From positions 1 through 24,813 of the IMG/VR virus record IMGVR_UViG_3300044960_000675: a stretch of 24,813 bases of DNA, one strand, 5' to 3'. The position numbers were made by a program, and so were the translations under genes. This stretch comes from a virus. Numbering within the stretch: position 1 is the stretch's first letter; each line of letters opens with the position of its first letter. Shown here piece after piece: positions 5,035 to 24,813 of the stretch. The notes under the pieces are model-generated. The model was not told where the DNA came from. It did not search any database and saw only the letters and a program-made list of their open reading frames with translations.

Positions 5035-5040
5035 GGCAGA

Positions 5041-5069: not shown

Positions 5070-5107
5070 CGGCGGAGTCTCGTGTCCGCCTTTCGTGCCG
5101 AGGTCCC

Positions 5108-6358: not shown

Positions 6359-6373
6359 CCAGGAGAGAACCCC

Positions 6374-6763: not shown

Positions 6764-6789
6764 GCACGTTCACTCATCCACGCCATGCG

Positions 6790-6813: not shown

Positions 6814-6843
6814 TTCTTGTCTCTACCCAGAGGAGGCCGACCG

Positions 6844-7866: not shown

Positions 7867-7867
7867 G

Positions 7868-8838: not shown

Positions 8839-9059
8839 TCGGCGCCCTGCTCGGCCGGTTCTGGCGCGAGCTCTCGGCGCTCGGCGCTGCCGCCGCGGCT
8901 GTGGGCGCGGTCTATCTGAAAGGCCGGCGTGACGCCGCGCGCGACGCTGAGCGTTCTGCGCTGAAGCAGCGCATCCATACGCAGGAGAAAGCCGATGCGG
9001 AAGCAGCTCGCTATCGCGCTGACGGCGCTGCTCGCCGGCTGCGCGACGGCCAGTTCTGA
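8835..9059 (+). CDS. Rz-like inner membrane spanin (i-spanin)
   Basis: A 74-residue protein with an N-terminal hydrophobic stretch (LSALGAAAAAVGAVYL) and then a highly charged helix (GRRDAARDAERSALKQRI to the end). That is the Rz pattern: one membrane segment and a periplasmic coiled coil that pairs with an outer membrane lipoprotein to fuse the two membranes at lysis. It is shorter than lambda Rz (153). The ATG overlaps the upstream stop (ATGA). The strongest support is the lipoprotein gene that starts inside it in another frame at 8995. Confidence 0.7.
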   Translation: MIGALLGRFWRELSALGAAAAAVGAVYLKGRRDAARDAERSALKQRIHTQEKADAEAARYRADGAARRLRDGQF

Positions 9060-9237
9060 CGGACTGCTGTGCCGGGCGCTGGTGCCCTATCCGCCCGAGG
9101 TCCAGCGGCGCGCTGCCGACGAGCTGGCTGTCCTGCCGCCTGACTCCGCGCTCGCACGCATGATCCACGACTACGGCGAGCTGCGCGCACGCATCCGCGG
9201 TGCCTGTGGACACGCAGCAGGACGGAGCCGCACATGA
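8995..9237 (+). CDS. Rz1-like outer membrane lipoprotein (o-spanin)
   Basis: An 80-residue protein with a classic lipoprotein signal: MRK, hydrophobic core LAIALTALLAG and lipobox LLAGC with Cys16. The mature part is short (about 65 residues) with a proline pair region (ALVPYPPEVQRR). It starts within the Rz-like gene in a different frame, overlapping it by 65 bp, the embedded or overlapping Rz/Rz1 arrangement. AGGAGA (8983-8988) precedes the ATG. It would sit in the outer membrane and bind the i-spanin in the last step of lysis. Confidence 0.75.
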   Translation: MRKQLAIALTALLAGCATASSDGLLCRALVPYPPEVQRRAADELAVLPPDSALARMIHDYGELRARIRGACGHAAGRSRT

Positions 9238-9467
9238 CCGAGACCGATGCGCTGGCGCGGTTAGAGCGGCACGAGCGCGAATGCGCCGAGCGCTACCGCG
9301 AGACCAAGGAGGAGATGCGGGCGATCCGCCACCTGATCGACACCCGCATGGACTGGCTCTTGAAGGCGCTGATCATCATGGCGCTCGCCTCGGTGGTGAT
9401 GTCGTTCATCGTGCTGCTCGGCGCGGAAAGCTTCGCCGAGATCGCCAAGGCCGCCCGTCGCGGCTGA
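9234..9467 (+). CDS. Small membrane protein, XhlA-like holin candidate
   Basis: A 77-residue protein with a charged helical N-terminus (LARLERHERECAERYRETKE) and one C-terminal membrane segment (LLKALIIMALASVVMSFIVLL) followed by a short basic tail. This is the outline of the haemolysin XhlA family (PF10779), small lysis-associated membrane proteins. It overlaps the o-spanin stop by 4 bp (ATGA), so it belongs to the lysis cassette. No other obvious holin is present; whether it alone makes holes is not known. Confidence 0.6.
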   Translation: MTETDALARLERHERECAERYRETKEEMRAIRHLIDTRMDWLLKALIIMALASVVMSFIVLLGAESFAEIAKAARRG

Positions 9468-9471
9468 GCGC

Positions 9472-10182
9472 TTGCGTCTCCTCGCCTCCCTCAGCACCAG
9501 CCTGGTCAAGGTCCTGGAACAGGAACTGCGCGCAGGCGAGCGTGCCATCACACGCGCCGTGCGAGCCGAGACCGAGCGGCTGAAGGCCGAGCTGCGCCAG
9601 CAGGCGAAGTCTGCGTTCGGAGATCGCAGCCGCAACATCGCCAATGCCTGGCGCTCTCGCGTGTTCCCTCAATCAGGCGAGAGCCTGCGCGCGGCTGGCA
9701 TCGTCTGGACGAAGGTGCCCACGATCATCCACGCCTTCGAGCACGGCGCGACGATCCGTGCGCGGGGCGGGCGGTTCCTCGCGATCCCCACCGGGTTCAA
9801 TGCCGCCCGCGGGCGGCGCGGGCGAGGCAATCTGGGTCTGCGCGTCACGCCGCAGCAGATGGTGGCCAGCCGCCAGGCCTTCCTGCGGCCGTTCCGGTCA
9901 GGGCGGGGCTTCGTCTGGTGCCTTCCCGTGCGGCAGGGCGTGCGCGTTGGCCGCCGGCGCGCGCCGCTGATCGCTGGCGGCATGGCGGAGGTGGCTACGG
10001 CGCGGCGGAAGGGTGCGGCAGCTTGGCAACAGGCTCTGCTCGCGCAGGGCTTCGTGCCGATGTTCCTGCTCGTCCCGCAGGTGCAGCTCGCCAAGCGACT
10101 GGACGTGCGCGGCGCCGGCCACCGGGCGCTCGCGCGCCTGCCTGCCGCGGTCGTGCGCGAATGGGAGGCGATCACCTCGTGA
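9472..10182 (+). CDS. DUF6441-family phage protein
   Basis: A 236-residue protein resembling DUF6441 proteins found in tail clusters of alphaproteobacterial phages: an N-terminal charged helix (VKVLEQELRAGERAITRAVR), the block NIANAWRSRVFPQSGESLRA, then AAGIVWTKVPTIIHAFEHGA, and a glycine/arginine-rich middle with FLAIPTGFNAA. Its place, after the head module and before the tail terminator, matches that of lambda gpZ or HK97 gp10 tail completion proteins, so a head-tail completion role is likely. The start is TTG 9472, four bases after the upstream stop. Molecular role not known. Confidence 0.7.
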   Translation: MRLLASLSTSLVKVLEQELRAGERAITRAVRAETERLKAELRQQAKSAFGDRSRNIANAWRSRVFPQSGESLRAAGIVWTKVPTIIHAFEHGATIRARGGRFLAIPTGFNAARGRRGRGNLGLRVTPQQMVASRQAFLRPFRSGRGFVWCLPVRQGVRVGRRRAPLIAGGMAEVATARRKGAAAWQQALLAQGFVPMFLLVPQVQLAKRLDVRGAGHRALARLPAAVVREWEAITS

Positions 10183-10319
10183 CAGAAAAGCTCTCGCCAC
10201 GGCGGTGCCTGGCGCTGCTGACGATCGGTGTCGCGCTGAGCTGGCTGGTCGCCTTGCTCGCGCTTGCCGTCATCCATGTGCTCGGGCGCTGGGCCGCGGA
10301 GATGCTCGGATGGCTGTGA
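10179..10319 (+). CDS. 46-residue single-pass membrane protein
   Basis: Small reading frame from GTG 10179 (GTGA overlap with the upstream stop) to TGA 10317-10319, overlapping the next ATG at 10310 by 10 bp. The product has a basic N-terminus (MTEKLSPRRC), one strong hydrophobic helix (ALLTIGVALSWLVALLALAV) and a short tail. The overlaps at both ends argue that it is a real, coupled gene. The family is not recognised. A membrane protein among tail genes could be a second holin or antiholin, or a superinfection-exclusion peptide; these are guesses. Confidence 0.55.
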   Translation: MTEKLSPRRCLALLTIGVALSWLVALLALAVIHVLGRWAAEMLGWL

Positions 10320-10762
10320 GCATCCGCGAAGCGGCGATCGCCGCGCTGCATACCGCGCTCTCGAACGCTCTCGCCTCGCGCTCGCCCCCGCCCCAGGTGC
10401 TGCGCGGCGAGACCGTGCCGCAGCGGCTCCCGTCCGGCGGGCTGGTCGTGGTCCAGGACGGCGAGACGGCCGAGGAGACCGCGATCCTCTCGCCGCTACG
10501 CTGGCAGGTGCGGCATGTGGCCGAGGTCGTGGTCGCGGCGCCCGGCTCCACACCCGAAGCGCGCGCAGCCGCGCTCGACGCGCTGCTCATGGACGTCGCT
10601 ACTGCGGTCGCCGCAGATCGCACGCTCGACGGCGCGGTCGAATGGGCGCAGCCCGAGAGCCCCTCCTTCGACGACCTCGAGTTCGACGGCGCCGCAGCCG
10701 TGCGCGCCGCGGCCGTGCCGGTCTCGCTCTGGTTCACCACCAGCGAGACCCCGCTCTCCTGA
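10310..10762 (+). CDS. Putative tail terminator / completion protein
   Basis: A 150-residue protein just before the tail tube gene, the place of lambda gpU. It starts with a helix (SIREAAIAALHTALSNALAS), then strands and a loop (GGLVVVQDGETAEET), LRWQVRHVAEVVVAAPG, a helix (ARAAALDALLMDVATAVAAD) and a final strand region (AVPVSLWFTTSETPLS). This alpha-beta order and size fit tail terminator proteins that cap the tube; close relatives in alphaproteobacterial phages are sometimes labelled acyl-CoA transferase, which I do not think is meaningful. Moderate confidence. Confidence 0.6.
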   Translation: MAVSIREAAIAALHTALSNALASRSPPPQVLRGETVPQRLPSGGLVVVQDGETAEETAILSPLRWQVRHVAEVVVAAPGSTPEARAAALDALLMDVATAVAADRTLDGAVEWAQPESPSFDDLEFDGAAAVRAAAVPVSLWFTTSETPLS

Positions 10763-10777
10763 TCTTCGGAGGTTCCC

Positions 10778-11728
10778 ATGCCCCGTGCCATCGGCGCGAA
10801 CAGCAAGATCCACATGGCGGTCGAGGCCGTCTACGGCACGCCGCCAGGCGGCAATTGGCGGCTGATGCCGATCCTTTCGTTCGACCTCGGCGCTGAGCAG
10901 CCCTTCATCGACGCGGACGTGATCGGTCTCGCGACCAACCGCGACGTCGCCCCGCCTTTCCGCGACATCGTCACCGTCCAGGGTCGGGCCGAAGTGCCGG
11001 TCGATCTCGAATTCATCGGCGACTGGCTTCGGCTGCTTCTTGGACCGCCGACCACCACCGGCACCGCGCCCGACTTCCAGCACGTCTTCGTCTCTGGAGC
11101 CTCTTCGCTGCCGTCGAACAGCATCGAGCAGGCCATGCCGGACGTGCCCAACTACGCCGTCTCGTCGGGCGTACGCGCGGATACCTGCCAGATCGATTTC
11201 TCGCCGTCTGGACCTGCCACCGCCACCTTCGGATTGATCGCGCAGAGCTCGACCCGCTCGAACACGTCCTCCGCAGGCACGCCGACCACGCGCGACTACA
11301 CCGCCTTCAACAAGGCGCAGGGTGTGATCCGCCGCAATGGCACGCCCTTGGCGCAAATCACGGGCGGGCAGCTGAACTTCTCGAACGGCATCGAGATCGT
11401 CCGCACCATCCGCGACGACTTCAAGATCGAGGGCGCCGATCCAGGGCTCTCGCGTTCCACCGGGCAGGTCACGAGTCGCTTCGAGAATACGGTGCTGATC
11501 GACGATGCCGCCAACAACACGCCGATCTCTCTTGAGTTCGAGTATCGGGTGAGTGCAGAGCGCCGTCTCACCGTGACCCTGCACCGGACGTATCTCGCGC
11601 TTGCCAAGACGCCGATCCAGGGACCGCAGGGCATCGAAGCCGCCTTCGACTTCCGTTGTGCCTTTGACGCGGCTGCCGGTCGCATGATGACCGTGACGCT
11701 CCGCAACGGTGTGGCGAGCTACGCCTGA
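10778..11728 (+). CDS. Phage tail tube (major tail) protein
   Basis: Forms the stacked rings of the tail tube. The 316-residue protein matches the Phage_tube_2 type: the opening RAIGANSKIHMAVEAVYGTP, then FDLGAEQPFIDADVIGL, VQGRAEVPVDLEFIGDWLRLLLG, a long middle with PTTTGTAPDFQHVF, and C-terminal FEYRVSAERRLTVTLHRTYL. A good ribosome site CGGAGG (10767-10772) precedes ATG 10778, consistent with high expression. Its stop overlaps the next ATG. Position before the chaperone and tape measure genes supports the call. Confidence 0.85.
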   Translation: MPRAIGANSKIHMAVEAVYGTPPGGNWRLMPILSFDLGAEQPFIDADVIGLATNRDVAPPFRDIVTVQGRAEVPVDLEFIGDWLRLLLGPPTTTGTAPDFQHVFVSGASSLPSNSIEQAMPDVPNYAVSSGVRADTCQIDFSPSGPATATFGLIAQSSTRSNTSSAGTPTTRDYTAFNKAQGVIRRNGTPLAQITGGQLNFSNGIEIVRTIRDDFKIEGADPGLSRSTGQVTSRFENTVLIDDAANNTPISLEFEYRVSAERRLTVTLHRTYLALAKTPIQGPQGIEAAFDFRCAFDAAAGRMMTVTLRNGVASYA

Positions 11729-12183
11729 TGTTCCGGCTCGCGCAGAAGGAGCGGTGGGTTGAACTGCCGCATGGCGTGCGGCTGCTCGTCGCGCCGCTGA
11801 CCACGGTCATGGTCGCGGCAGCGCAGGCGTCGGCCCGGCGGCGCGCGCTCGAACTGCTCGGCAAAGAAGAGCTGCCAGAGCAGGAGAACCTGCGTCGTGG
11901 CGTGGCGCTCATGCTCACCATCCAGGCGCTCGGACGCGAGTGCATCCGCGCCTGGGATGGCGTGGTGGACGAAGATGGCGCGACAGTTCCCATCACGCCG
12001 GAAGCGATCGAGGTCCTCCTGAGTCACGAGGAGATGGCGTTCGCCTTGTTCGATGCCGTCATGACTCCGTTGCGCGCGGTCGAAGCGGAGGGAAACGCCT
12101 CAGGGCCCGCGCCGCATGGCACTGCGGCGGCGGGCCGGAATACTGCCGAGGCTGTGCCAGTCTCGAACGCGAGTGCGGCCTGA
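11728..12183 (+). CDS. Tail assembly chaperone, short (gpG-like) form
   Basis: Coats the tape measure protein before tube assembly. The 151-residue product (FRLAQKERWVELPHGVRLLV, then a helical middle ARRRALELLGKEELPEQENL and MLTIQALGRECIRAWDGVV) has the size and position of gpG-type chaperones, between tail tube and tape measure. The last 30 or so residues are alanine-rich and low in complexity (PHGTAAAGRNTAEAVP), as expected where a second frame is read in the same DNA. A frameshift signal at 12090-12136 would redirect a fraction of ribosomes into the extension that ends at 12419. Confidence 0.75.
   Translation: MFRLAQKERWVELPHGVRLLVAPLTTVMVAAAQASARRRALELLGKEELPEQENLRRGVALMLTIQALGRECIRAWDGVVDEDGATVPITPEAIEVLLSHEEMAFALFDAVMTPLRAVEAEGNASGPAPHGTAAAGRNTAEAVPVSNASAA
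12090..12136 (+). promoter_or_regulatory. Programmed -1 frameshift signal
   Basis: The heptamer GGGAAAC at 12090-12096 is in the correct phase (G GGA AAC in the chaperone frame), matching the X XXY YYZ rule; lambda uses GGGAAAG in its G/GT gene. Seven bases later a GC-rich hairpin starts: 12104-12115 pairs with 12124-12136 (7 bp, one bulged G, 5 bp) with an 8-base loop. Slippery site, spacer and hairpin together form a full frameshift signal. The resulting frame has no stop until 12419. Confidence 0.8.
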
Positions 12184-12419
12184 GCTGTCCCTACGTCGAG
12201 CACGCCCCGGAAACGGTCGATGGGACGGCGTGCTGGCGCGCGGCGCTCGCCTGCCTGACGGCGGACATGGCGGGGGTGCGGATCGACATGGCCGCCGCCC
12301 TGGCGGTCGCGCAGGCGCTCGGAGCCGCGCCTGAGGTGACGGGCGAGTTGCTGGCCGCGATCGCGGATGGAATGGCGGAAGCTCAGGTGAAACGAGCAAA
12401 GGAGCGGCGCGATGGCTGA
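12096..12419 (+). CDS. Tail assembly chaperone -1 frame extension (GT-type T part)
   Basis: Continuation of the chaperone in the -1 frame, 108 codons, ending at TGA 12417-12419. It has no ATG or GTG start before its conserved part, so frameshifting at 12090-12096 is the likely route; the fusion would be about 231 residues. The segment just after the shift is cysteine-rich (HCGGGPEYCRGC, then ERECGLSC), quite unlike the alanine-rich peptide in the other frame. Then comes a helical part (GTACWRAALACLTADMAG, ALAVAQALGAAPEVTGELLA) with a charged end (QVKRAKERRDG). The T domain should bind the tube protein and recruit it to the tape measure. It overlaps the tape measure ATG by 8 bp. Confidence 0.7.
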   Translation, partial: RLRARAAWHCGGGPEYCRGCASLERECGLSCPYVEHAPETVDGTACWRAALACLTADMAGVRIDMAAALAVAQALGAAPEVTGELLAAIADGMAEAQVKRAKERRDG

Positions 12420-14598
12420 CGCGGTGCGTCGCTTCCTGCTGCGGCTGTCTGTCGACGGTGCTCAGCAGGCCAGGACCGAACTCACACAGATCGGCGAGCA
12501 GGGCGACCGCGCGTTTCAACGGATCGTTGCAGGAGCACAAGGTGCCAGCCGTGCGCTGTCGCTGCTCGCGCCAGTGCTGTCGGCGCTCTCGGTCGGAGCG
12601 ATTGCCAATTTCGCAAAGCGAGCGGTTGATGCGGTAGGCGGGCTCGGCGAGCTTGCGGACAGCGTCGGCGTCTCGACCGACGCGCTGCAGGCGTTCCGGT
12701 TCGCCGCCACCGAGGTCGGGCTTCGCAGCGAGGACCTCGAACGCGGCCTCGCCATTCTGACTCGCCGCATCGGCGAGGCGGCGGTTGATGGCGGCGAGGC
12801 AGAAAAAGCGTTTCGCAAGATCGGCGTCGCCTTCCTCGATGCGTCCGGCAACGCGCGCGCGACCGAGGGCGTGCTGGCGGATATCGCCGATCGGATCGCC
12901 GCGATCCAGAGTCCAGCCGAGCGGGCGCGGATCGCCACCGAGATCTTCGGTGACCGGATCGGCCAGCGGTTGATCCCATTCCTGGCGCAGGGACGGGAGA
13001 GGCTTCAGGACCTCATCGCCGAAGCCCTGCGCTATGGCGTGATCGCTGACGCCGAGCTGATCGTCAAGGCGGATCAAGCGTCCGACAAGATCAACAAGCT
13101 TGGCGAAGCATTCGGTCGACTGGCAACGCGGATCGCGGCCGAGGCAGCGCCGGCGCTAAGCACATTCGCTGCCGTGCTCGAAGGCGTACTCTTCGGCAGG
13201 CCGGTGTCGGAGCAGATCAAGGATCTTGAAGGCGAGCGCGCTCGCATTTCAGCTCTCATCGACCGTGCTGTTGATGGCGTTGTCACATCGACCACACGAC
13301 GCGGCCGCACGGTGCGGACGCCCGTCGAAGAACTCATTCGCGCACGTGCAGAGATTGATCAACAACTTGAAAAGTTGCGCGCAAGCAATCAGCAGTATCA
13401 GCAGCAGGCGCGTGAGATCCTCGAAGGACGCACTCGCACGGGCGCCAATGAGGCGGAGTTGCGCCGACAGCGCGCGGCCGAGGATATCGCGAAGCTGCGC
13501 GAGACGTTCGATGCACGGGTGCGGATCGAGCGCGAGTACCAGGAGAAGCTGGATCGCATTCGCCGGGCTTCCGAGACGGGCGCGATCGATCCTGGACAGC
13601 GACAGGAACTCGAAACCCAGGCGCTGCGCGCGCGCGATGAGGCGCTGCAGAAGCTCACGCGCACCACCACCACGGCCGTCAACGCCGAGGAGCGGCGGAT
13701 CGACGCGCTCCGCCGACAACTCGAGCTCGCGCAGCTGGTCGACGAGCGCGAGCGGTTCGTCGCCGAGAAGGTTGCAGGCCTCACCGGCGTGCAGCGCGCG
13801 GAAGCGGAGCGGCTCGCCAACACGCTGTTCGATCTGCAGAAGGCGCGGCAAGAGGAGAACCGGGCGCTTAGCGAGGTCGCGCGGCTCTACGAGGAGACGC
13901 GCACGCCGATCGAGCGCTACATCGAGGCGCTGGAACGGCTCGCCCAGCTGCGTCCCGCGCTCGAGCTGCGGTTCGGCGCTGAGCAGGCCAACGAGATCAT
14001 CAGCCGGCGCGCGGAATCCCTGGTCAACGAACTGAACCGGGCGGAACAGCAGGTCACGCAGGTGGATGATGTCGCGCGCCAGCTGGGCCTCACCTTCGAG
14101 AGCGCGTTCGAGAATGCAATCACGCGCGGCAATAGCTTCTCGAGTGTGCTGAAAGGCATCGAACAGGATCTGCTGAAGCTCGGCACACGCAAGCTGGTCA
14201 CCGAGCCGCTGCTGGCGCTGTTCAACTCGGCGCTCAAAGGCGTCTTCGGCGAAGGCGGGATCAGCGGCATCTTTTCCAGCATCGGCTCGTTCATAGCCGG
14301 GCTGTTCCACGAAGGCGGCGTGGTCGGCGCGAGCGCCGTGCCGCAGCGCCGCGTGCCGGCGCTCGCTTTCGCCGGTGCGCCACGGCTGCACAACGGCTGG
14401 TTCCGACCGGACGAGTACCCCGCGATCCTGCAGCGCGGCGAGATCGTCGTGCCCAAGCGCGAGGCGCGCCGCGGCTTCGGCGGCATGAACGTGACCATCA
14501 ACGTCACCACCCCTGATGCAGACAGCTTCCGCGCGTCGCAGGCTCAGATTGCAGCCTCCATGGCGCGCACGCTGCAGCGCGCGCAGCGGAGCCTCTGA
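12412..14598 (+). CDS. Tail tape measure protein (lambda gpH type)
   Basis: Sets tail length and is ejected ahead of DNA. The 728-residue protein starts with a tape-measure opening (RRFLLRLSVDGAQQARTELT), a hydrophobic segment (LSLLAPVLSALSVGAIANFA, about 49-68), GLGELADSVGVSTDALQAFR, a long alpha-helical, charged middle (about 280-560) and a lambda-type C-terminal region: TFESAFENAITRGNSFSSVL, LLKLGTRKLVTEPLLALFNS, a glycine-rich membrane-active stretch (GGISGIFSSIGSFIAGLF), FHEGGVVGASAVP, ILQRGEIVVPKREARRGFGG, then MNVTINVTTPDADSF. At roughly 1.5 angstrom per residue the tail would be about 110 nm, an estimate only. High confidence. Confidence 0.93.
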   Translation: MADAVRRFLLRLSVDGAQQARTELTQIGEQGDRAFQRIVAGAQGASRALSLLAPVLSALSVGAIANFAKRAVDAVGGLGELADSVGVSTDALQAFRFAATEVGLRSEDLERGLAILTRRIGEAAVDGGEAEKAFRKIGVAFLDASGNARATEGVLADIADRIAAIQSPAERARIATEIFGDRIGQRLIPFLAQGRERLQDLIAEALRYGVIADAELIVKADQASDKINKLGEAFGRLATRIAAEAAPALSTFAAVLEGVLFGRPVSEQIKDLEGERARISALIDRAVDGVVTSTTRRGRTVRTPVEELIRARAEIDQQLEKLRASNQQYQQQAREILEGRTRTGANEAELRRQRAAEDIAKLRETFDARVRIEREYQEKLDRIRRASETGAIDPGQRQELETQALRARDEALQKLTRTTTTAVNAEERRIDALRRQLELAQLVDERERFVAEKVAGLTGVQRAEAERLANTLFDLQKARQEENRALSEVARLYEETRTPIERYIEALERLAQLRPALELRFGAEQANEIISRRAESLVNELNRAEQQVTQVDDVARQLGLTFESAFENAITRGNSFSSVLKGIEQDLLKLGTRKLVTEPLLALFNSALKGVFGEGGISGIFSSIGSFIAGLFHEGGVVGASAVPQRRVPALAFAGAPRLHNGWFRPDEYPAILQRGEIVVPKREARRGFGGMNVTINVTTPDADSFRASQAQIAASMARTLQRAQRSL

Positions 14599-15218
14599 TG
14601 GCGTTCCACGACGTTCGCTTTCCCGACAGGATCGCGCTCGGGGCGACCGGCGGACCGCTGTGGTCCACGAACGTGGTCACGACCGCCGGCGGTCACGAGC
14701 GCCGCAACCAAAACTGGTCGGCCTCGCGCGGCCGCTGGAACGTCGGATCTGGGCTCAAGACGCGCGACGACCTCGCGGCTCTGATCGCGTTCTTCCGCGC
14801 CCGTCGCGGCCGCGCCTTCGTGTTCCGCTTCAAGGATTGGTCTGACTTCGAGATGCCGCGTCAGCAGATCGGCACGACGGATGGCACGACGTCGACCTTC
14901 CAGATCGTCAAGACCTATACCTCCGGCCCCGCATCGCAGGTGCGCACGATCCAACTGCCGGTCGCCGGCACGGTGCGCTGCTGGGTGAACGGGATCGAAC
15001 GCACGCTCGGCGGCGGCTCGAACCAGTTCCAGGTAAACACCACAACGGGCGTCATCACCCTCGGCACCGGGCTGCGATCGCCTGCCGGCAATGCCGTGGA
15101 AGCGTTCTGCCAGTTCGATGTGCCGGTGCGTTTCGATGTTGATGAGCTTGGGCTGACCCTTGAGAACTTCTTCCAGGGCCAGTGGGTCGACATCCCGGTG
15201 ATCGAGGTGCGGCTGTGA
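14598..15218 (+). CDS. DUF2460 distal tail protein
   Basis: A 206-residue member of the TIGR02217/DUF2460 family: FHDVRFPDRIALGATGGPLW, the block RNQNWSASRGRWNVGSGLKT, then LAALIAFFRARRGRAFVFRF followed by KDWSDFEM, all hallmark segments. It is the equivalent of gene transfer agent gp12 and of the distal tail protein that joins the tube to the tip in Alphaproteobacteria. The ATG overlaps the tape measure stop. High confidence in family; the exact structural place is taken from gene transfer agent work. Confidence 0.9.
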   Translation: MAFHDVRFPDRIALGATGGPLWSTNVVTTAGGHERRNQNWSASRGRWNVGSGLKTRDDLAALIAFFRARRGRAFVFRFKDWSDFEMPRQQIGTTDGTTSTFQIVKTYTSGPASQVRTIQLPVAGTVRCWVNGIERTLGGGSNQFQVNTTTGVITLGTGLRSPAGNAVEAFCQFDVPVRFDVDELGLTLENFFQGQWVDIPVIEVRL

Positions 15219-16282
15219 AATCGGTATCCGGCGCGCTGGCAACCCATCTCGGCGAACGGCTCACCACGCTGGCGACCTGCTGGCGTGTCGAGCGCCGCGA
15301 TGGTCTGGTATTCGGCTTCACTGATCACGACCAGGATCTGGTTGTCGACGGCGTTACCTATCGCGCGCAGACAGGTTACCGGCGCGCTGCGATCGCATCG
15401 CGTGCCGACCTTTCGGTGGACGACACCGAGATCGAAGGCATCCTTGACGCGGCGGAGATCGACGCCCCGTCGCTGCGGGCGGGCATCTGGGACGGCGCCG
15501 AGGTGCGCATCTTCCTGGTCAACTGGGCCGACCTTTCGCAGGGAACGCTCCGGCTGCGGCGCGGGCGGCTTGGCGAGGTTGTGGCGCGCGACGACGGCAC
15601 CTTCCGCGCCGAGCTGCGCGGCCTGGCGCAGGCGCTGAACGTGACGGTCGGCGAACTCTACACGCCTGAGTGCCGCGCTGACCTGGGAGATGCGCGCTGC
15701 AAGGTGCCAATCCGGCCGCCGCTGCGGGCGAACAGCACCGCCTACGCGCTCGGGACGTTTGTGCGTTTCGAGACTGACCCGCTGGCGACGGGCACCTGGC
15801 GCGAGCAGGAGCGCATCTACGAGTGTACGACCGCCGGCACCAGCGCCGCCACCCCCCCGACGTTCAACACCACGGTCAACGCCACGACGACGGATGGCAC
15901 GGTGACCTGGACCGCGCGCATGGCGTGGACGCTGCCGGCAACGGTCGCCTCCGCGCCTGATCTGCAGACGGTCGTGATCCAGAACACCGGCGAGGCGCCG
16001 AACAAGGTGAACGGATGGTTTGAGGCGGGCGTGGTTGTGTTTGAGAGCGGGCTCAACGCCGGGGTGGCGCGCGACGTGCTCGGTTGGGTGCAGGCGACCC
16101 GCACCTTGACCCTCTTCGTGCCGCTGCCGTTCCCGGCTGTCGCCGGCGACGTGCTGCGGGTCCAGCCCGGCTGCGACAAGCGCCTCGCTACCTGCCGCGA
16201 CCGCTTCGCCAACCGGCTCAATTTCCGCGGCGAGCCGTACGTCCCGGGCGACAAGGGCGTGATCGAGACGGGGGTCGCGTGA
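15215..16282 (+). CDS. DUF2163 / BR0599 tail tip protein with inserted module
   Basis: The 355-residue product has an N-terminal DUF2163 domain (HLGERLTTLATCWRVERRDG, FGFTDHDQDLVVDG) and a C-terminal BR0599 domain (GWFEAGVVVFESGLNAGVAR, then VQPGCDKRLATCRDRFANRL and NFRGEPYVPG with conserved cysteines), the counterpart of gene transfer agent gp13 hub proteins. Residues about 170-240 between them form an extra module (TAYALGTFVRF, RIYECTTAGTSAATPPTF, TDGTVTWTARMAW), of the small carbohydrate-binding-like type seen in phage tail proteins. The start is GTG 15215, overlapping the upstream stop. High confidence in the family, moderate in the module. Confidence 0.9.
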   Translation: MKSVSGALATHLGERLTTLATCWRVERRDGLVFGFTDHDQDLVVDGVTYRAQTGYRRAAIASRADLSVDDTEIEGILDAAEIDAPSLRAGIWDGAEVRIFLVNWADLSQGTLRLRRGRLGEVVARDDGTFRAELRGLAQALNVTVGELYTPECRADLGDARCKVPIRPPLRANSTAYALGTFVRFETDPLATGTWREQERIYECTTAGTSAATPPTFNTTVNATTTDGTVTWTARMAWTLPATVASAPDLQTVVIQNTGEAPNKVNGWFEAGVVVFESGLNAGVARDVLGWVQATRTLTLFVPLPFPAVAGDVLRVQPGCDKRLATCRDRFANRLNFRGEPYVPGDKGVIETGVA

Positions 16283-16689
16283 CGCTCGACGAAGCAGCGC
16301 GATCCTACCTTGGCGTGCCTTGGCGCCACCTTGGCCGCTCGCGCGAGGGGCTGGACTGCATCGGGCTGGTGCTGCTGGCGGCGCGCGATTGCGGCTTCGA
16401 CGTGCCGGACCCGCCGCCCTACGAGCGCGAGCCGTCCTCGCATCGTCTGCGTCAGGAACTGACGTTCTTGCTGGACGAAGGATCGGTCGCCGATCCTCGC
16501 CCAGGCGACGTGCTGCTCTTCAACGTGGGCGTCTATGGCGGGCACATCGGCATCGCGGGTCTGCATCCCGAGTACCGATGCCTGTCGCTGATACATGCCT
16601 ATGCGCCCCGCCGACGCGTAGTGGAGGATCGTCTGACTGGCTCGGAGATCGAGCTGATGACGGGCGTCTTCCGGCTGAGGGGCGTCTGA
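16279..16689 (+). CDS. NlpC/P60-family tail peptidase
   Basis: Cell wall peptidase placed in the tail tip, the counterpart of gene transfer agent gp14. The 136-residue protein shows the NlpC/P60 pattern: RSYLGVPWRHLGRSREGLDC with nucleophile Cys27, PRPGDVLLFNVGVYGGHIGI with catalytic His89, and a later polar residue in SLIHAYAPRRRVV. It likely cuts peptide cross-bridges so that the tail can cross the wall. GTG 16279 overlaps the upstream stop by 4 bp. High confidence. Confidence 0.92.
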   Translation: MTLDEAARSYLGVPWRHLGRSREGLDCIGLVLLAARDCGFDVPDPPPYEREPSSHRLRQELTFLLDEGSVADPRPGDVLLFNVGVYGGHIGIAGLHPEYRCLSLIHAYAPRRRVVEDRLTGSEIELMTGVFRLRGV

Positions 16690-16690
16690 G

Positions 16691-19600
16691 ATGGCCGTCC
16701 TCGCGCTTGCGGCTGGCGGTGCGGTGCTGGGTGGCGCCGTCGGCAGTGCGCTCGGCGCCGCTTCGCTCGGCGTTTCGGTCGGCTGGGCGCTCGGCGGGCT
16801 CGCGGGCAACATGCTGTTCGGCCCGAAACCGCCCGCGATCACCGGGCCGCGCCTGGGCGACCTGTCGGTCCAGACCAGCACCTACGGCGCCGCCATTCCG
16901 CTGGTGTTCGGCACGGCGCGCGTCGCCGGCAACATCATCTGGTCGTCGGGCATTCGCGAGCAGACGAACACGCGACGGGTGCGCGCCGGCAAAGGCGGGC
17001 GCCGGCAGACCGTCACGACCTACTCCTACTTCGCCTCCTGGGCATCCGCGCTCTGCGCCGGTCCGATGGCGGCGGTGCTGCGGATCTGGATGGACGACAA
17101 GCTCGTCTACGACGCGTCAGGTGCGTCGCTCGAGTTGCAGGTGCCCGGGCTGCGCTGGCGGTTCTATCCAGGCGACGAGACGCAGCTTCCGGATCCGCTG
17201 ATCGAGGCGAATGTCGGTGCGGCGAATGCGGTCGCGCATCGCGGTCTCTGCTACCTCGTATTCGAGGACGTGCCGCTGGATGCGTTCGGCAATCGCATCC
17301 CGTCGGTCAGCGTCGAGGTGGTAGCGGCCGGTGGCATTTCTTCCATCGAAACGACAACGACTCTTCCAACGTCCGGCAGCTGGTCCAGTGCGCTCTACGC
17401 AGCAGACCACACGCGCGCCACGGTGCTGTTGATTGGCACCGAAGCTAACAACAGCACGCTCCACTTCTTGGGCTCGGTGAACACGCTGACGATGGATGCG
17501 CAGCGGGCATACGGTCCGAGCCTGGCGCGGTTCCCGCACGCGATCGCCTTGCAGGACGGCAAGGCCTACGTGGTGCACGGGCCGTCTGGTGACGTCTGGC
17601 TTCGCAAGTACGATCTCGACGCCGGCGTTCGGATCGAGCCGCCATTCGAAGCGACGACTGCGGGATTCACAACCACGCGCACCCGCTTCCGCGTGCCGCT
17701 GCGCGGTGATTGCGTGATTGCTCGCGTGCTCGGTCCCTTCGGCTGGCGGCGCTTCTTTCTGACTCCGCCGCAGGGCAGCCCGGCCGCCGTCTACTGCATC
17801 GATGTCGACACAATGAAGTACGTGTTCGGCTCGTCCGCCACCGGCGATCAGCGCATCATGGAAGCGCCGACAAACGGACTGCTGGCGGCAGGCGAGGAGC
17901 GGGAGGGCGAGTCCGACGTCTGGTATGTCGCGCCGGTCTCCGGTGGCGGCATCGAGCTCTGGCGCATCGTGATCACCTACGGCGCAACCGGCGGGCCACA
18001 GATCGCAGGCGTGAGGGCGTCGCAGGTGGCTACCTATACCAATGCCGCGCTGGGTTTGACCGGTTCAGGAACAATCAAAGTTAACGCCTTTGATTACGAT
18101 CCAGACGACAACACTCTGATCCTCGCTGTGTTGCCCAACTCGCCCGTCGAAACCGCGATTATCAAGCTGCGCGCGGATGGATCGATCGCCTGGCAGCGAT
18201 ACTTCGCAACCTTCTTCTCCGAGTCACGGTCTGGCACCAAGCGCGTCCTCGGCGGCACCTGGGCAATCCAAAGAGAAGGCGTGAACCAGGTCACGCTGCT
18301 TGATACGCGCACGGGCGCGACGCTGCAGACCGTCACGACTTCCGGCATGCCGAGCTTTGTCGCGTTCGCCTGGGACTCGACCATCAAGGCCGCGTTCTAC
18401 TTCGGCACGGGCGGCGTCTATCGCCGGCTGCTGATGCAGCGCCAGAGCAGCGACACCGTGCCGCTCTCGTCGATCGTGTCGACGCTCTGCACGCGTGCAG
18501 GCCTTGTCGCCTCGGACATCAACGTTGCGGCCCTCACCGACAGTGTGCGCGGCTTCGTAGTGGCCCGGCCGATGGCGGCGCGCCAGGCGCTCGAGCCGCT
18601 GGCGACCGCATTTTCCTTCGATGCGGTCGAGCGCGACGATGTGCTCGTCTTTCGCAAGCGCGGCGGCGCCACGGTGGCAACAGTCGCGCACACGGATCTG
18701 GTACGGCGCGGCGACAGCCCCGTGATCCAGGAACAACGCGCGCAGGACGCCGAGCTTCCGCGCGCGGTCTCGGTACGCCACATTGACCCGGAGCGCGCCT
18801 ACGAGGTGGGAACCCAGCGGTGGCAGCGACCTCTTGCGCCTACCGCCACCATGGCGTCGGTCGGCGAGACCGTGCTCGACCTGCCGATCGTGCTGACCGC
18901 GTCGGAAGCGAAGGCGATCGCGCGGCGGGTCGTCACCGCGGCCTGGCGCGAGCGTACGCGGTTAAGCTTCACCGGCACGACGCAGCACCTTCGCCTTGAG
19001 CCGACTGATCCGATCCTGCTCACGCGCGCCGACGGAGCGCAGGCTCGCGCGCGCATCCTGTCGGCGCAGCTCGGCGCCAACTGGACGGTCGAGATCGAAG
19101 CGGTCGAAGAAGTCACGGGCGACTACGTGCAGCCCGCACTGGCCGACGGCGGCGCAGGGCATGCGCCGGATACTTTGCCGCTGCCCTACGCGGTGCGAGG
19201 TTTCGCGCCCAACCTGCCTCTGATCGTCGACGCCGACGACCTGGCCGGCTCCGGGCTACGCACCTACCTGCACGGCGGCGCCATCCGGGGCCAGACCTGG
19301 CGGAGAGCGGATGCGTTCCGTTCCACCGATGGCACCGTCTGGGAGTCGGTCGGCGCGCTGGTGGACCCGGCGGCCTGGGGCACTGTCGTCTCGCCTGTGC
19401 CGGTTCCCGCCTCCTACTGGACCTGGGACGACGCGACCGTTCTCACGGTCCAGATGCAGACTGGTGCCGAGCGCATCGAGGGCACGACCGATCTCGAGGT
19501 GCTGAACGGCGCCAACCTCGCGGCGCTGCTGGCGGAGGACGGTCGGGTCGAGCTGATCCAGTTTGTCGACGCCGATCCGCTGGGCTCCGGGCGGTTCGCG

Positions 19601-20146
19601 CTGCGGCGGCTGCTGCGCGGCAGGCGCGGCACCGAGGACGCCGGCGTCTTCACCACCGGCGCCACCTTCCTGCTGCTCGACGCATCCATCCTGCGCAGCG
19701 CCACGCCGACTGGCGCGCTCAACACCGTCGAGCGGTTCCGCTTCGTCGGTCTGTTCGGCTCGATCCAGACGGCCAGCGAGGTGCGGCGGCTGACCATCGG
19801 GCGCGCGGAGCAGCCCTACGCCCCCGCGCACATCGTCGGCACGCGCAATCCGGGCCAGGACCTCACCGTGACCTGGGTGCGACGCACGCGGATCGGCGGC
19901 GAGCTGGTCGATCTGACCGACTCGGTGCCGCTCGCCGAGGAGACCGAAGCCTACGAGGTGGACATCCGCAACGCCGGCGACACCGCCACGCTGCGCACCT
20001 TCACCGGGCTGACCTCTCCGACCGTCACCTACACCGCCGCGCAGCAGACGACCGACGGGCTGACGCCGGGCGATCCGGTGCGGGTGCATGTGTTTCAGAT
20101 GAGCGCTCTTGTCGGGCGCGGTCGAAGAGGAGTTGCCGTCGTATGA
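16691..20146 (+). CDS. Tail hub / host-specificity protein with propeller-like insert
   Basis: Large (1151 residues) tail tip protein, the counterpart of gene transfer agent gp15 and lambda gpJ. The N-terminus is glycine/alanine-rich and hydrophobic (GGAVGSALGAASLGVSVGWA), then GPRLGDLSVQTSTYGAAIPL, VFGTARVAGNIIWSSGIREQ and TYSYFASWASALCAGPMAAV, typical of this family. Residues about 213-583 form an insert with repeated beta-strand units (AIALQDGKAYVVHG, VYCIDVDTMKYVFG, FDYDPDDNTLILAVL, VTLLDTRTGATLQTV) suggesting a beta-propeller. The Phage-tail_3-type core resumes at PLSSIVSTLCTRAGLVASDI and RQALEPLATAFSFDAVERDD. The C-terminal part has fibronectin-like strands (NPGQDLTVTWVRRTRIGGEL). No TIM-barrel glycosidase, found in gene transfer agent gp15, was seen. 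One base separates it from the upstream stop. Confidence 0.88.
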   Translation: MAVLALAAGGAVLGGAVGSALGAASLGVSVGWALGGLAGNMLFGPKPPAITGPRLGDLSVQTSTYGAAIPLVFGTARVAGNIIWSSGIREQTNTRRVRAGKGGRRQTVTTYSYFASWASALCAGPMAAVLRIWMDDKLVYDASGASLELQVPGLRWRFYPGDETQLPDPLIEANVGAANAVAHRGLCYLVFEDVPLDAFGNRIPSVSVEVVAAGGISSIETTTTLPTSGSWSSALYAADHTRATVLLIGTEANNSTLHFLGSVNTLTMDAQRAYGPSLARFPHAIALQDGKAYVVHGPSGDVWLRKYDLDAGVRIEPPFEATTAGFTTTRTRFRVPLRGDCVIARVLGPFGWRRFFLTPPQGSPAAVYCIDVDTMKYVFGSSATGDQRIMEAPTNGLLAAGEEREGESDVWYVAPVSGGGIELWRIVITYGATGGPQIAGVRASQVATYTNAALGLTGSGTIKVNAFDYDPDDNTLILAVLPNSPVETAIIKLRADGSIAWQRYFATFFSESRSGTKRVLGGTWAIQREGVNQVTLLDTRTGATLQTVTTSGMPSFVAFAWDSTIKAAFYFGTGGVYRRLLMQRQSSDTVPLSSIVSTLCTRAGLVASDINVAALTDSVRGFVVARPMAARQALEPLATAFSFDAVERDDVLVFRKRGGATVATVAHTDLVRRGDSPVIQEQRAQDAELPRAVSVRHIDPERAYEVGTQRWQRPLAPTATMASVGETVLDLPIVLTASEAKAIARRVVTAAWRERTRLSFTGTTQHLRLEPTDPILLTRADGAQARARILSAQLGANWTVEIEAVEEVTGDYVQPALADGGAGHAPDTLPLPYAVRGFAPNLPLIVDADDLAGSGLRTYLHGGAIRGQTWRRADAFRSTDGTVWESVGALVDPAAWGTVVSPVPVPASYWTWDDATVLTVQMQTGAERIEGTTDLEVLNGANLAALLAEDGRVELIQFVDADPLGSGRFALRRLLRGRRGTEDAGVFTTGATFLLLDASILRSATPTGALNTVERFRFVGLFGSIQTASEVRRLTIGRAEQPYAPAHIVGTRNPGQDLTVTWVRRTRIGGELVDLTDSVPLAEETEAYEVDIRNAGDTATLRTFTGLTSPTVTYTAAQQTTDGLTPGDPVRVHVFQMSALVGRGRRGVAVV

Positions 20147-21387
20147 GCACGCCGAACCTCGCCATCCCGCACGTCGCTGCGGCGCAGGCGCAGAAGGAGG
20201 TGACGATCAACGACGGCTTCAACCGGCTCGACCGGGCCGTCACCGACTTCCTGACCGTCAACCTCTCGGCCGGCAACGTCACACTGACGGCCGACCAGTT
20301 CCGCCTGCACCGGATCTTCCGCAGCCAGGGCGTCACGGTGCCGCGCACGCTGACCGTGCCGCAGATCCGGCGCGAGGCCTCGATCGACAACGCCGACGGG
20401 ACGGCGGACCTGACGGTCGCGCGCGGCACGGGCTCGGTGGTGGTGCCGGCTGGCGCTGCGCTGACGGTCTACACAGACGGCACCGCGGACGGCATCCGTG
20501 CCATCGGTGGTGTGGGTGGCGGTGGTGCGTCTGAGTTCGTCGATCTGACCGACACGCCGTCGTCCTATGCGGGTCAGTCGCTGCGATCGGTACGCGTGAA
20601 CGCTGCCGAGACCGGCCTCGAGTTCTTCGCTCCGACCGTCTTCGCCAGCAACTGGGCAGTGCCGTTTCGCGGTGCGCTGACGCAGAAGACGGCGACGCAA
20701 TCCGTTCCGGCCAACACCGAAACAACCATCACGTTCAACAACACGATCTACGATACGGACTCGTTTTGGTCGAATGCCAATCCGAGTCGGCTGACGGTGC
20801 CGGCGGGTGTGACGCGCGTGATCGTCTCGGCGAACGTGCGGATCACCGGCGGTTCGACCAGCGCCCAACTGCAGCTTCGCATGAACGGCGGCGACGTGGT
20901 CGGTGTCGCCAATGTCAATATGAGCACCGGTTTTACGGTCGCCCAGATCAACGCCGTCAGCGCGCCAATCAGCGTGACCGCCGGCGACTATTTCGAAGCC
21001 AGCGTGTTCGTGACGGCGGCGCGCACGATCGACTCAAGCGCCCGCACCTGGCTTGCGATCCAGGTGGTCGAGGTGAGCACGGCTGAACAGGCGCCGTCGA
21101 TCTCGGGCGCGCGTGGGCTGAATGCCTGGGGCGGCACGGCCGGCGGCACGGCGGATGCGCGCACGATCTCGCTCACGCCCGCGCTCACCGCCTACTTCGC
21201 CGGGCTGACGGTGTGCTTCGTGAATGGCGCAGCGGCGAACACCGGCGCAGCGACGCTCAACGTGGACGGGCTGGGTGCCGTCGCCATCCGCAAGGGTGAC
21301 GGCTCCGTCGATCTCGATCCTGGCGACCTGCCGGCGTCAGCGCTGGTCACGGTCGTCCACGACGGCACCGTCTTCCGCCTCGCCTGA
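20143..21387 (+). CDS. Tail fibre with DUF2793-like N-terminus and C1q-like domain
   Basis: Probable receptor-binding fibre, 414 residues. The N-terminus (PNLAIPHVAAAQAQKEVTIN, then DGFNRLDRAVTDF) is the DUF2793-like base that attaches to the tail. A glycine hinge (GGVGGGGAS) leads to FVDLTDTPSSYAGQSLRSVR, a repeat-type fibre motif. Residues about 165-310 resemble a C1q-like jelly roll: TETTITFNNTIYDTDSFW, SRLTVPAGVTRVIVSANVRI, then VTAGDYFEASVFVTAART. The end is a glycine/alanine-rich, strand-rich module (GAATLNVDGLGAVAIRKGDG, VTVVHDGTVFRLA). The ATG overlaps the upstream stop (ATGA). It is the last gene of the late operon. Domain calls are by eye; the fibre role is well supported by position. 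Confidence 0.85.
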   Translation: MSTPNLAIPHVAAAQAQKEVTINDGFNRLDRAVTDFLTVNLSAGNVTLTADQFRLHRIFRSQGVTVPRTLTVPQIRREASIDNADGTADLTVARGTGSVVVPAGAALTVYTDGTADGIRAIGGVGGGGASEFVDLTDTPSSYAGQSLRSVRVNAAETGLEFFAPTVFASNWAVPFRGALTQKTATQSVPANTETTITFNNTIYDTDSFWSNANPSRLTVPAGVTRVIVSANVRITGGSTSAQLQLRMNGGDVVGVANVNMSTGFTVAQINAVSAPISVTAGDYFEASVFVTAARTIDSSARTWLAIQVVEVSTAEQAPSISGARGLNAWGGTAGGTADARTISLTPALTAYFAGLTVCFVNGAAANTGAATLNVDGLGAVAIRKGDGSVDLDPGDLPASALVTVVHDGTVFRLA

Positions 21388-21486: not shown

Positions 21487-21603
21487 TTTCGTGCGTCCGC
21501 AGCGCAACGGACGCGCGCGTGCTATGCGACCGGTTCCAGAAGCTCAGGGCCGTCCCGCCGCACGTCGTTCACCGCACGCGAGACCGGCCAGGCGCGCAGC
21601 ATG

Positions 21604-21921
21604 GTTCAACCACGTGTCCCGGGATCCGGGTGCGGTACAGCGCGATCGGCGATCCGCGGCGCGCTATACGCGATCGATCCCTAGGCGCTCTTCAGCCGCG
21701 TCGTCCGGTAGCCGTTTCCATAGCCCGCCTCCGGCACCCGCGCCGCGCGCGTAGGAGCCGCGACCCAGCGCGTCCGCGGCTTCGCCTTTCGGCGCGTCCT
21801 CGATGATCAGCCGCGCCGCCAGGCGCACAGGCTGCGAGCAGACGTCAGACGCTCCGCCATCGCCCGCCATCAACCCCTTCAGCCGCTCGCGTGTCCGTTC
21901 GGATGCAGGTATCCTCTCCAT
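21604..21921 (-). pseudogene. Decayed IS256/mutator-family transposase, N-terminal fragment
   Basis: On the minus strand, MERIPASERTRERLKGLM (ATG at 21921) and RLAARLIIEDAPKGEAADAL, then GRGSYARGAGAG, match the N-terminus of IS256-type transposases. A frameshift near 21730 follows; the sequence continues in another frame as GYGNGYRTTRLKSA, meets TAG (21683-21681), then GSIAYSAPRIADRAVP, all in the expected order. Beyond about 21610 similarity fades, and the catalytic DDE part is absent. No terminal inverted repeats could be identified. This is an old, broken insertion sequence with no active product. Confidence 0.75.
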
Positions 21922-22052
21922 CGGGCTGCCCCGTCGTGGGACGACCAAGCGTCAACTCCATTGTCGGTGACTTGCGGTCTGGCGACGGTGCATCCTCACC
22001 CTCTTTCCAGCAATCCTAGGACTTGACCGGGGAGTGACCGCGGAGAGGAGCT

Positions 22053-24813
22053 ATGGACGTCTTTGAGTTCCGCGACCGACTGATCGAGGACTACGAGCGC
22101 TTCTCGCGCAGTTTCACCCAGATTCGCTCCGAGGATGTTCGCGACGCCGTCGACGCCGCGTATCGGGCCGGGCGCTTCTGGCCAGCGCCGCTCATCCAGA
22201 TCAATCCCAATTTTGTGGCAGGCGGCACAGTAGATGAGCTGGTCGAGGCAAGGCTCCTCGATCCAGAATGCGCTAAGATCTTCCGGATCAAGTCCTTCGA
22301 GGACACCTTCGGCAAGCCGATGGTGCTGCACCGCCATCAGCGGGACGCCATCGAGGTGGCGCGGCGTGGTGAGAGCTACGTCCTGACCACCGGGACAGGG
22401 TCCGGTAAATCCCTCGGTTATTTCATCCCGATCGTCGACGACGTGCTACGCCGCAGGCGCGCGGGCCAGCTGCGCAAGGGCATCACGGCGATCGTGGTCT
22501 ATCCCATGAACGCGCTTTGCAACAGCCAGCGCGACGAGCTCGAAAAATTCCTCAAGCTCGGCTACAGCGAAGGCAACGAGCCCGTCACGTTCGCCCGCTA
22601 CACGGGCCAGGAGAGCCAGGAAGAGCGAGAACGTATCGCCAAGGACCCGCCGGACATCTTGCTCACGAACTACGTCATGCTCGAACTGATCATGACGCGG
22701 TTCCTCCCTACCGACATCTCCGTCCGTAATCACGCGGCGGGCCTGCGGTTCCTGGTGCTGGACGAACTCCATATTTATCGTGGCCGGCAAGGCGCCGATG
22801 TCGCAATGCTGGTGCGCCGCGTCCGCGAACGTTTCAACGAAAACCTTCTCTGCATTGGCACCTCGGCCACAATGGCCTCAGAAGGCGACGCGGAGGACCG
22901 CGCAAAGGTGGTTGCCGGGGTGGCGACGCGGCTGTTCGGCGTAAAGGTGAAGCCGGAGAATATCATCACAGAGACGCTGCATCCGGTAACGGCCGACAGC
23001 ACGTCCGTCGACCGCAGGGCCCTCAGCGCCGCGATCGCAGCCGGCGTGCCGGCGTCACCGAGCGCTGCCGATCTCGTAACGCACCCGATCGCCGCCTGGA
23101 TCGAGCGCAGGCTTGGACTCGAGGAGCGGGATGGCCGGCTCATCCGCATCTCGCGCCCGCGGACCATGGAAGAGGCAGCGGCGATGCTGGCCGAAGACAG
23201 TGGGGTTTCGCAAGAGGCGTGCCGCGAGTATCTCGCTGCATTCCTACTCAAATCTTATGAGACCCAGGATAGCAAGGGTCGGCCATTCTTCGCCTTTCGC
23301 CTGCATCAGTTCGTGAGCGGCGCCTGGAATGTCTACACGACGCTTGAGGCCAAAAGTAGCCGATACATCACTCTCGACGGCCAGAAGTTCAAGCCGGGGG
23401 ACCGCGGGCGCCACCTGTTCAACCTCTGCTTCTGTCGGGAGTGCGGGCAGGAATACCACCCGGTCTGGGCGCGCATGGAAGGCAAGGAGCCGCGGGCGTT
23501 CATTCCCCGCGAACTGACCGAACGCTCCAATGAGGACGAGGACCTCGAGTACGGCTATCTGATGCCCGACAGCGATGGAATCTTCGACCCGAACGATCTC
23601 GAAAAACACTATCCCGAAGACTGGCTGGAGTTCAGGGACGGAGCCGCGCGCCTTAAGCCCAATTACCGCCGTTACCGCCCCTTCCCCGTGCAGGTCGGCA
23701 CGACCGGCGAGGTCGCGGGCGACGGGATGCTCGCCTGGTTCATTCCCGGGTCCTTCAGATTCTGCTTACGCTGCGGCATCGCCTACGACGGCAGCGTGCG
23801 CAGTGACTTGACGAAGCTCTCGGGCCTGTCAAGCGAGGGGCGCAGCTCCGCGACCACCGTCCTCACGATCAGCGCCCTCAGGTATCTCATCGGGACCGAC
23901 CTCGAAGACGAGGCCAAGAAGATCCTCGGCTTCACGGACAACCGTCAAGACGCCTCCCTTCAGGCCGGTCATTTCAACGACTTCGTGCAGGTTCTGCTCT
24001 TGCGCGGCGCATTGCTCGCTGCGATCCGCGGGCAGTCCGACGAGAAGCTGACCGATGACATCCTGACGCAACGGGTGCTGGAGCACCTCCGCCTGGACCC
24101 TGCCGATTACGCCGCCAACCCTGAAGTCAAGGGCATCAAGACGCAGAACACGCTCAAGACGCTACGCGACGTGCTGGGATATCGGCTTTATTTCGATCTG
24201 CGGCGCGGCTGGCGCTTTACCAACCCAAACCTTGAACAGGTCAAGCTCCTCGCCATCGATTACCAAGGCCTAAGAGACTGCTGCGCGGATGAGTCCGAAT
24301 GGAATAAGCGCCACCCACTCCTCGGATCGGCGACCCCGGAGCAACGCTACGCCATCGTTCACGACCTTCTTGACCGGATGCGCAAAGCGCTCTGCATCAA
24401 AACCATTTATCTCGATCCCAATTTCCAGGAGCAGATGCGCAACCGCAGCTTCAACGAGCTCAAGGAGCCGTGGGGCCTGTCGGAAGACGAGCGGCTCTTT
24501 TCCCATGCTTACATGGTGCCGCGACCGCAGCCGCAGCACCGGTCTGAAGAAAGGGTCCTACACGTCTCGTACCGCTCTGTCTTCGGTCGCCGGCTGCGCG
24601 CTCAGGCCAGCTGGGGCGACAACCCTCATTTCCCGAGCAAATTTGATGAAGATACCTACAACGCGGTCATCGACGACATTCTCCATGTGCTAACCACTTA
24701 TGGGTATGTGGAGCCGACCAAGCTCGATCAAGGCCGCATAGGCTATCGGATTGACAGTTCCGTCCTGGCATGGCGCCTCGATAACGGCCGGGACCAGAAA
24801 CAGACTGGCTCCA
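22053..24813 (+). CDS. Large DEAD/DEAH-type helicase, COG1205/DruE-like (5' part)
   Basis: Open to the window edge, at least 920 codons, so the protein is truncated here by the window, not by mutation. Superfamily 2 helicase motifs are in order: TGTGSGKS with Lys119 (motif I), VVYPMNALCNSQRDELEKFL (Ia), LTNYVMLELI (Ib), VLDELHIYRG with DELH 237-240 (II), GTSATM near 269-274 (III). A cysteine cluster follows (Cys459, 461, 464 and 571, 574) that may bind zinc, then the second RecA-like part with GFTDNRQDASLQAGHFNDF (from about 626). This set fits the COG1205 branch, which includes DruE of Druantia antiphage systems and other large DUF1998 helicases. The C-terminal DUF1998 domain, if present, lies beyond the window. 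Ribosome site GGAGAGGAG lies 2 bp before the ATG. Helicase call is strong; the system name is inference. Confidence 0.85.
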   Translation, partial: MDVFEFRDRLIEDYERFSRSFTQIRSEDVRDAVDAAYRAGRFWPAPLIQINPNFVAGGTVDELVEARLLDPECAKIFRIKSFEDTFGKPMVLHRHQRDAIEVARRGESYVLTTGTGSGKSLGYFIPIVDDVLRRRRAGQLRKGITAIVVYPMNALCNSQRDELEKFLKLGYSEGNEPVTFARYTGQESQEERERIAKDPPDILLTNYVMLELIMTRFLPTDISVRNHAAGLRFLVLDELHIYRGRQGADVAMLVRRVRERFNENLLCIGTSATMASEGDAEDRAKVVAGVATRLFGVKVKPENIITETLHPVTADSTSVDRRALSAAIAAGVPASPSAADLVTHPIAAWIERRLGLEERDGRLIRISRPRTMEEAAAMLAEDSGVSQEACREYLAAFLLKSYETQDSKGRPFFAFRLHQFVSGAWNVYTTLEAKSSRYITLDGQKFKPGDRGRHLFNLCFCRECGQEYHPVWARMEGKEPRAFIPRELTERSNEDEDLEYGYLMPDSDGIFDPNDLEKHYPEDWLEFRDGAARLKPNYRRYRPFPVQVGTTGEVAGDGMLAWFIPGSFRFCLRCGIAYDGSVRSDLTKLSGLSSEGRSSATTVLTISALRYLIGTDLEDEAKKILGFTDNRQDASLQAGHFNDFVQVLLLRGALLAAIRGQSDEKLTDDILTQRVLEHLRLDPADYAANPEVKGIKTQNTLKTLRDVLGYRLYFDLRRGWRFTNPNLEQVKLLAIDYQGLRDCCADESEWNKRHPLLGSATPEQRYAIVHDLLDRMRKALCIKTIYLDPNFQEQMRNRSFNELKEPWGLSEDERLFSHAYMVPRPQPQHRSEERVLHVSYRSVFGRRLRAQASWGDNPHFPSKFDEDTYNAVIDDILHVLTTYGYVEPTKLDQGRIGYRIDSSVLAWRLDNGRDQKQTGS

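Follow-up and report, generated by a model that had tools for sequence, protein, structure and literature searches.

ARMADA type I, as defined by Bell et al. 2025 (PMC12458937), begins with a gene for a YprA-like helicase that ends in a Vsr-type nuclease, followed by a BrxHII-like gene and then a PglX-like gene. Experimental demonstration of phage protection is available for ARMADA type II, whose block of phage is direct and involves no growth arrest; type II needs the Walker motifs of its helicases as well as the NPPW motif of its methyltransferase (PMC12458937). Type I is the branch outside the phage tests of the defining paper, which covered type II. In the related Druantia systems the helicase DruE loads on DNA that contains 3' single-stranded DNA and cuts DNA (PMC13192584), and the DrmAB components of DISARM are activated by unmethylated single-stranded DNA (PMC9142583).

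The DNA analyzed here (the window) is IMG/VR virus record IMGVR_UViG_3300044960_000675, 24,813 bases in all. An open reading frame on the plus strand runs from an ATG at 22053 to the end of the window, 920 codons without a stop. This is a real gene, coding for residues 1 to 920 of an SF2 helicase of the YprA family (COG1205), and it is interrupted by the end of the source record. The helicase match of the open frame is highly significant (Pfam DEAD, 88 bits). The initial annotation had described a DruE-like giant helicase beside a prophage. That description can now be replaced with a precise assignment: the open frame very probably opens an ARMADA type I operon (helicase-nuclease, BrxHII/RapA-like protein, PglX-like protein) and is cut by the contig end. 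The kind of system is already known from Bell et al. 2025 (PMC12458937), and the window adds another member. The rest of the gene and the partner genes would be expected in this genome, judging from the relatives.

A scan of one genome per species recovered 57 relatives of the window helicase. The closest over the 920 residues was L002, from a Defluviicoccus metagenome-assembled genome (85% identity), followed by L003, from Chelatococcus sambhunathii (82%). The features of the helicase gene, with the evidence for each, are as follows.

22027..22052, plus strand: likely ribosome-binding region, the stretch before the start codon, common to L002 (82% over 34 bp including the start)
22053..24813, plus strand: 5' part (920 codons) of the YprA-like helicase gene of ARMADA type I (open frame, identity to L002 and L003, tree)
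22389..22412, plus strand: motif I (Walker A), TGTGSGKS, residues 113-120 (invariant in 28 relatives)
22758..22772, plus strand: motif II (Walker B), LDELH, residues 236-240 (D237, E238 and H240 invariant in relatives)
22857..22871, plus strand: motif III, GTSAT, residues 269-273 (motif and conservation comparison)
23433..23444, plus strand: first CxxC pair, C461/C464, of a putative zinc-binding insert at the RecA2 start (invariant in 28 relatives)
23763..23774, plus strand: second CxxC pair, C571/C574 (invariant in 28 relatives)
23928..23963, plus strand: GFTDNRQDASLQ, residue 626, conserved RecA2 start, motif IV-like (motif and conservation comparison)

Motifs Ia (YPMNAL, residue 150) and Ib (LLTNYVML, residue 203) are also present. 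Motifs V and VI are absent from the 920 residues of the window protein. In L002 the motif QRSGRAGR sits at residue 1023, so motif VI is expected beyond the window end. The earlier statement that all main SF2 motifs are present holds for motifs I, Ia, Ib, II, III and the GFTDNRQDASLQ segment, and it was overstated because motifs V and VI lie past the window end. The five cysteines that it grouped as a cluster all exist, at residues 459, 461, 464, 571 and 574. Four of them form the two CxxC pairs, but C459 varies among the 28 relatives.

Strands are predicted at residues 456-505 and 525-565 in a structural model of the window fragment (mean pLDDT 81). The features considered for ARMADA type I were the clade, the partner genes, the MZB/DUF1998 domain and Vsr-type end, the beta-barrel insert with its CxxC motifs, and the BrxA-like helical insert after RecA1. 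The window protein has the beta-barrel insert where RecA2 begins, with its two or more CxxC motifs; paired CxxC modules of this kind have been described for the lineage (PMC12458937). A mostly helical stretch lies at about residues 321-403 in the window model.

The missing part of the protein can be viewed in the complete relatives, which have about 1700 to 1790 residues (about 1755 in L002 and L003). The L002 helicase contains DEAD, Helicase_C and MZB (DUF1998) domains and a DUF559 match at its C terminus. An AlphaFold2 model of the L002 C terminus (mean pLDDT 81) resembled the catalytic domain of I-Bth0305I (3r3p, Z 9.4) and Vsr (1cw0, Z 8.7; 1vsr, Z 7.9). Z scores of 8 to 9 for Vsr are moderate, yet the reading of this region as a Vsr fold is consistent with the DUF559 match and with conserved residues. 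This 85% identical relative thus combines an MZB/DUF1998 zinc domain with a predicted Vsr-fold nuclease at its C-terminal end.

The best fold match of the window model was the repair helicase MrfA/YprA (6ZNP), which has the same core fold and an MZB domain, and the gene might on that basis be considered a housekeeping DNA repair helicase of the MrfA/SftH type. However, MrfA has 751 residues, no nuclease, no such inserts and a different gene context, whereas the relatives of the window helicase are 1700 to 1790 residues long, end in a Vsr-like domain and have two constant partners of defence type. It is therefore extremely improbable that the window gene is a repair helicase of this kind.

The gene that follows the helicase on the same strand encoded a BrxHII/RapA-like helicase in all 45 loci with room for it. 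A PglX/DrmMI-like methyltransferase followed the BrxHII-like gene in 37 of 38 loci, and the order was kept in 37/37. The two partners in L002 match DpdE/DrmD/BrxHII models and DrmMI/type IIG models, respectively; the BrxHII-like partner also matches RapA chains, and the methyltransferase contains the NPPW motif. The trio pattern is repeated on the annotated plasmid p5-AD3 of Roseomonas mucosa, on Deinococcus radiodurans pMP1 (with the methyltransferase as two frames) and on Caballeronia pSBC1_4. Conserved housekeeping neighbors in place of the trio were not seen among the relatives. Among the possibilities raised initially, a first gene of a system continuing to the right is the most likely given these partner counts. 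The fixed partners, together with the placement in the ARMADA type I clade described below, argue against a stand-alone or new type of defence gene. In Chelatococcus the helicase and BrxHII-like genes are separated by an inserted gene of the GmrSD type (type IV restriction; L003/L133, 5670-7577, plus strand). A second and diverged ARMADA type I trio also occurs in this genome (L131, G002:C23), and its helicase is 42% identical to the window protein. A Pseudanabaena plasmid (L118, 8320-20248) carries two different giant YprA-family helicase genes, tail to tail.

Phylogeny was consistent with the partner genes. In a quickly built tree of 41 proteins, whose branches are long outside the ARMADA I group and whose rows are other than DISARM and Dpd, the window protein grouped with L002 and L003 (SH-aLRT 100). 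It fell inside 29 ARMADA I rows, labeled by operon order rather than by a named type I reference, on one side of a branch with support of 100. This branch set it apart from ARMADA II, from Druantia III (rows recognized by their STY4851 partners) and from Druantia I/II.

Annotation of the window gene as the DruE of a Druantia system would follow from the defence model scan, in which the best PADLOC model was DruE (154 bits). Both lineages are YprA-family helicases with common inserts (PMC12458937), and DruE also has an MZB domain. However, the PADLOC name arises because DruE is the nearest PADLOC model. Full-length L002 scored 331 bits, and clear DruE proteins scored 1,439 to 2,046 bits. The window score is far below those of clear DruE proteins. 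The tree separates the window from the Druantia rows. The relatives belong to the ARMADA trio, with no DruH or other Druantia gene beside them, and the C terminus of the relative is Vsr-like, in contrast to the PLD nuclease of DruE in type III. No DruH or other Druantia partner was found upstream of the open frame within the window, in agreement with the first inspection. The proposal of a large COG1205/YprA-family helicase from a defence branch related to DruE is borne out by the Pfam match, the relatives and the tree, but the tree, the PADLOC scores and the partner genes shift its identity to ARMADA type I, and there is almost no likelihood that the window gene is DruE itself. A 2023 defence gene library calls this branch DruE, and scans that rely on the library will therefore miscall ARMADA I.

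Comparison with the other described systems leads to the same placement. The relatives resemble ARMADA type I in gene order, in the MZB/DUF1998 domain, in the C-terminal Vsr-type nuclease and in the paired CxxC modules. They differ in that the two nearest relatives add a gene for an LmuB-like SMC protein, which is absent from the main text of PMC12458937. ARMADA type II of E. coli (L085 and L086) has the same protein families, but in the order BrxHII, methyltransferase, YprA (2113 amino acids) and UvrD/GajB-like helicase, an order also present on the E. coli plasmids pLAO8 and RCS32TR557_p. Its helicase is only about 34% identical to the window protein over the RecA1 region and falls in a separate clade. 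Unlike in type II, no BrxHII-like and methyltransferase genes come before the window helicase; phage and transposase DNA precede it, and in the relatives the partners follow. DISARM is similar in that the relatives' partners resemble BrxHII/DrmD and DrmMI. However, DISARM encodes the helicase (DrmA) and the DUF1998 protein (DrmB) in two genes and has a PLD protein (PMC12458937), whereas the relatives have one 1755-residue gene with a Vsr-like end. PADLOC DrmA models scored low for the window protein (17.6 bits).

These relationships suggest how the system may work. The YprA-like protein would load on phage DNA that exposes single strands and move along it under a canopy formed by the zinc-rich MZB/DUF1998 domain, and its C-terminal Vsr-fold nuclease would cut the phage DNA. 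The RapA-like ATPase might remodel or clear the substrate, and the methyltransferase might mark self or gate the distinction between self and nonself. The expected outcome would be a direct, nonabortive defence. By analogy with type II ARMADA, DruE and DrmAB, the window protein is likely to be the helicase-nuclease that engages DNA in its operon, while the methyltransferase would protect self. The sequence relationship and the conserved catalytic motifs are shown here, as are the full domain makeup and the operon order of the relatives, and the activity is inferred.

The region upstream of the helicase is of a different kind. Its features are listed here.

99..21387, plus strand: phage structural module, a neighbor that lies outside the defence operon (terminase, portal, protease, decoration, capsid, tape measure and tail genes; related viral contigs)
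21528..21602, minus strand: SRAP (SOS-response-associated peptidase) gene, last 25 codons only (tblastn with the full SRAP of viral contig L063, 96% identity)
21643..22024, minus strand: decayed Mutator/IS256-type transposase relic between the phage and ARMADA DNA (L136 and two further genomes)

The head and tail genes of this module confirm the phage tail genes noted at the outset. The module (99-21387, plus strand) combines a lambda-like head with a baseplate protein of the "megatron" type found in gene transfer agents. The baseplate proteins of related viral contigs L060 to L064 are 75 to 95% identical to that of the window. A gene transfer agent was considered on account of the megatron match and rejected; the match scored 520 bits against a cutoff of 800, and the head genes are lambda-like. 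A helix-turn-helix (Xre/HTH_31) gene, possibly a moron or an antitoxin, lies on the minus strand at 4422-4790, between the portal and protease genes. The high GC content of the phage part produced antisense frames that misled first-pass gene calls. Close relatives of the phage were not found in 385 genomes of the class of L002 or among plasmids, and phage records gave nothing closer than a portal match.

The phage genes and the helicase are directly adjacent on one contig, and the initial annotation had raised the possibility that the prophage carries the helicase as defence cargo. Carriage of such operons by mobile elements has a parallel in L059, a related ARMADA I (58% identical) in a phage satellite-like element, and satellite-like carriers were described by Bell et al. 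(PMC12458937). However, the DNA common to the related phages L060, L061, L063 and L064 stops at window positions 21391-21645, about 400 bp before the helicase. What follows is the truncated end of the SRAP gene and the transposase relic. Window positions 21643-21937 are 72% identical to DNA of L136, the frame of which matches Pfam Transposase_mut; the window's own copy has stops in all frames. The insertion sequence relic noted earlier is thus substantiated. GC content drops across the junction from about 0.69 in the phage part to 0.62 in the ARMADA part. None of the related phage contigs has the helicase, and phage structural genes are lacking from the annotated flanks of the Roseomonas plasmid copy and, as phage structural families, from the scanned upstream open frames of L002 (L003 has only 435 bp upstream). 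With the phage-shared DNA ending near 21,645 and a transposase relic lying between it and the ARMADA start at 22,053, it is quite unlikely that the operon is cargo of this prophage.

The full SRAP gene (Pfam SRAP, 208 bits) lies just after the tail gene in L063 (14782-15477, minus strand), and only the last 25 codons are left in both the window and L061. After this common truncated end the window and L061 diverge from each other. The DNA around the phage-ARMADA junction gave no consensus promoter or terminator, and the spacer had no match among plasmids.

Another explanation for the junction is that it is a metagenome assembly chimera, in which case the phage and ARMADA contigs would not be neighbors in any cell. 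The composition step near 22 kb and the absence of the junction strings from other viral contigs are consistent with a chimera, and repeats such as insertion sequence relics are sites of assembly misjoins. However, the junction passes through the truncated SRAP end common to L061 and then through a decayed rather than intact transposase, as in a natural rearrangement. A chimera is therefore unlikely, though less so than prophage cargo. The phage module is probably a chance neighbor joined to the ARMADA DNA across a transposase scar, the junction having arisen by rearrangement or possibly by chimeric assembly.

Two leads came from the wider comparison: a sub-branch with a coupled SMC gene, and an ARMADA I operon carried by a satellite-like element. 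In the two nearest relatives of the window (L132 4617-6641, minus strand; L133 14891-16870, plus strand) and in a distant Caballeronia operon (L117 from 21318, plus strand), the gene after the ARMADA I methyltransferase encodes a Lamassu LmuB-like/DUF2326 SMC ATPase. In L002, L003 and the Caballeronia locus L117, which are few cases, the two genes overlap by about 17 bp at the methyltransferase stop each time. The methyltransferases of the same three loci have a common C-terminal stretch (residues 1315-1489 in L002, 35% identical to L117), which was not matched in the four relatives compared (L007, L021, L025 and L083). It is conceivable, at somewhat less than even confidence, that the window belongs to a four-gene variant of ARMADA I in which translation of an LmuB-like SMC ATPase is coupled to that of the methyltransferase. 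If so, this variant would link SMC-type DNA sensing to ARMADA.

The second lead is a complete ARMADA I operon in the element L059/L134 (IMGVR_UViG_3300048855_000223, 37,115 bases). This element also encodes a capsid-protease fusion, a terminase small subunit, a VapE-type/Prim-Pol replication gene and a serine recombinase. From its gene content it looks like a capsid-forming phage satellite that carries defence genes, which fits the satellite-like carriers that Bell et al. described (PMC12458937).
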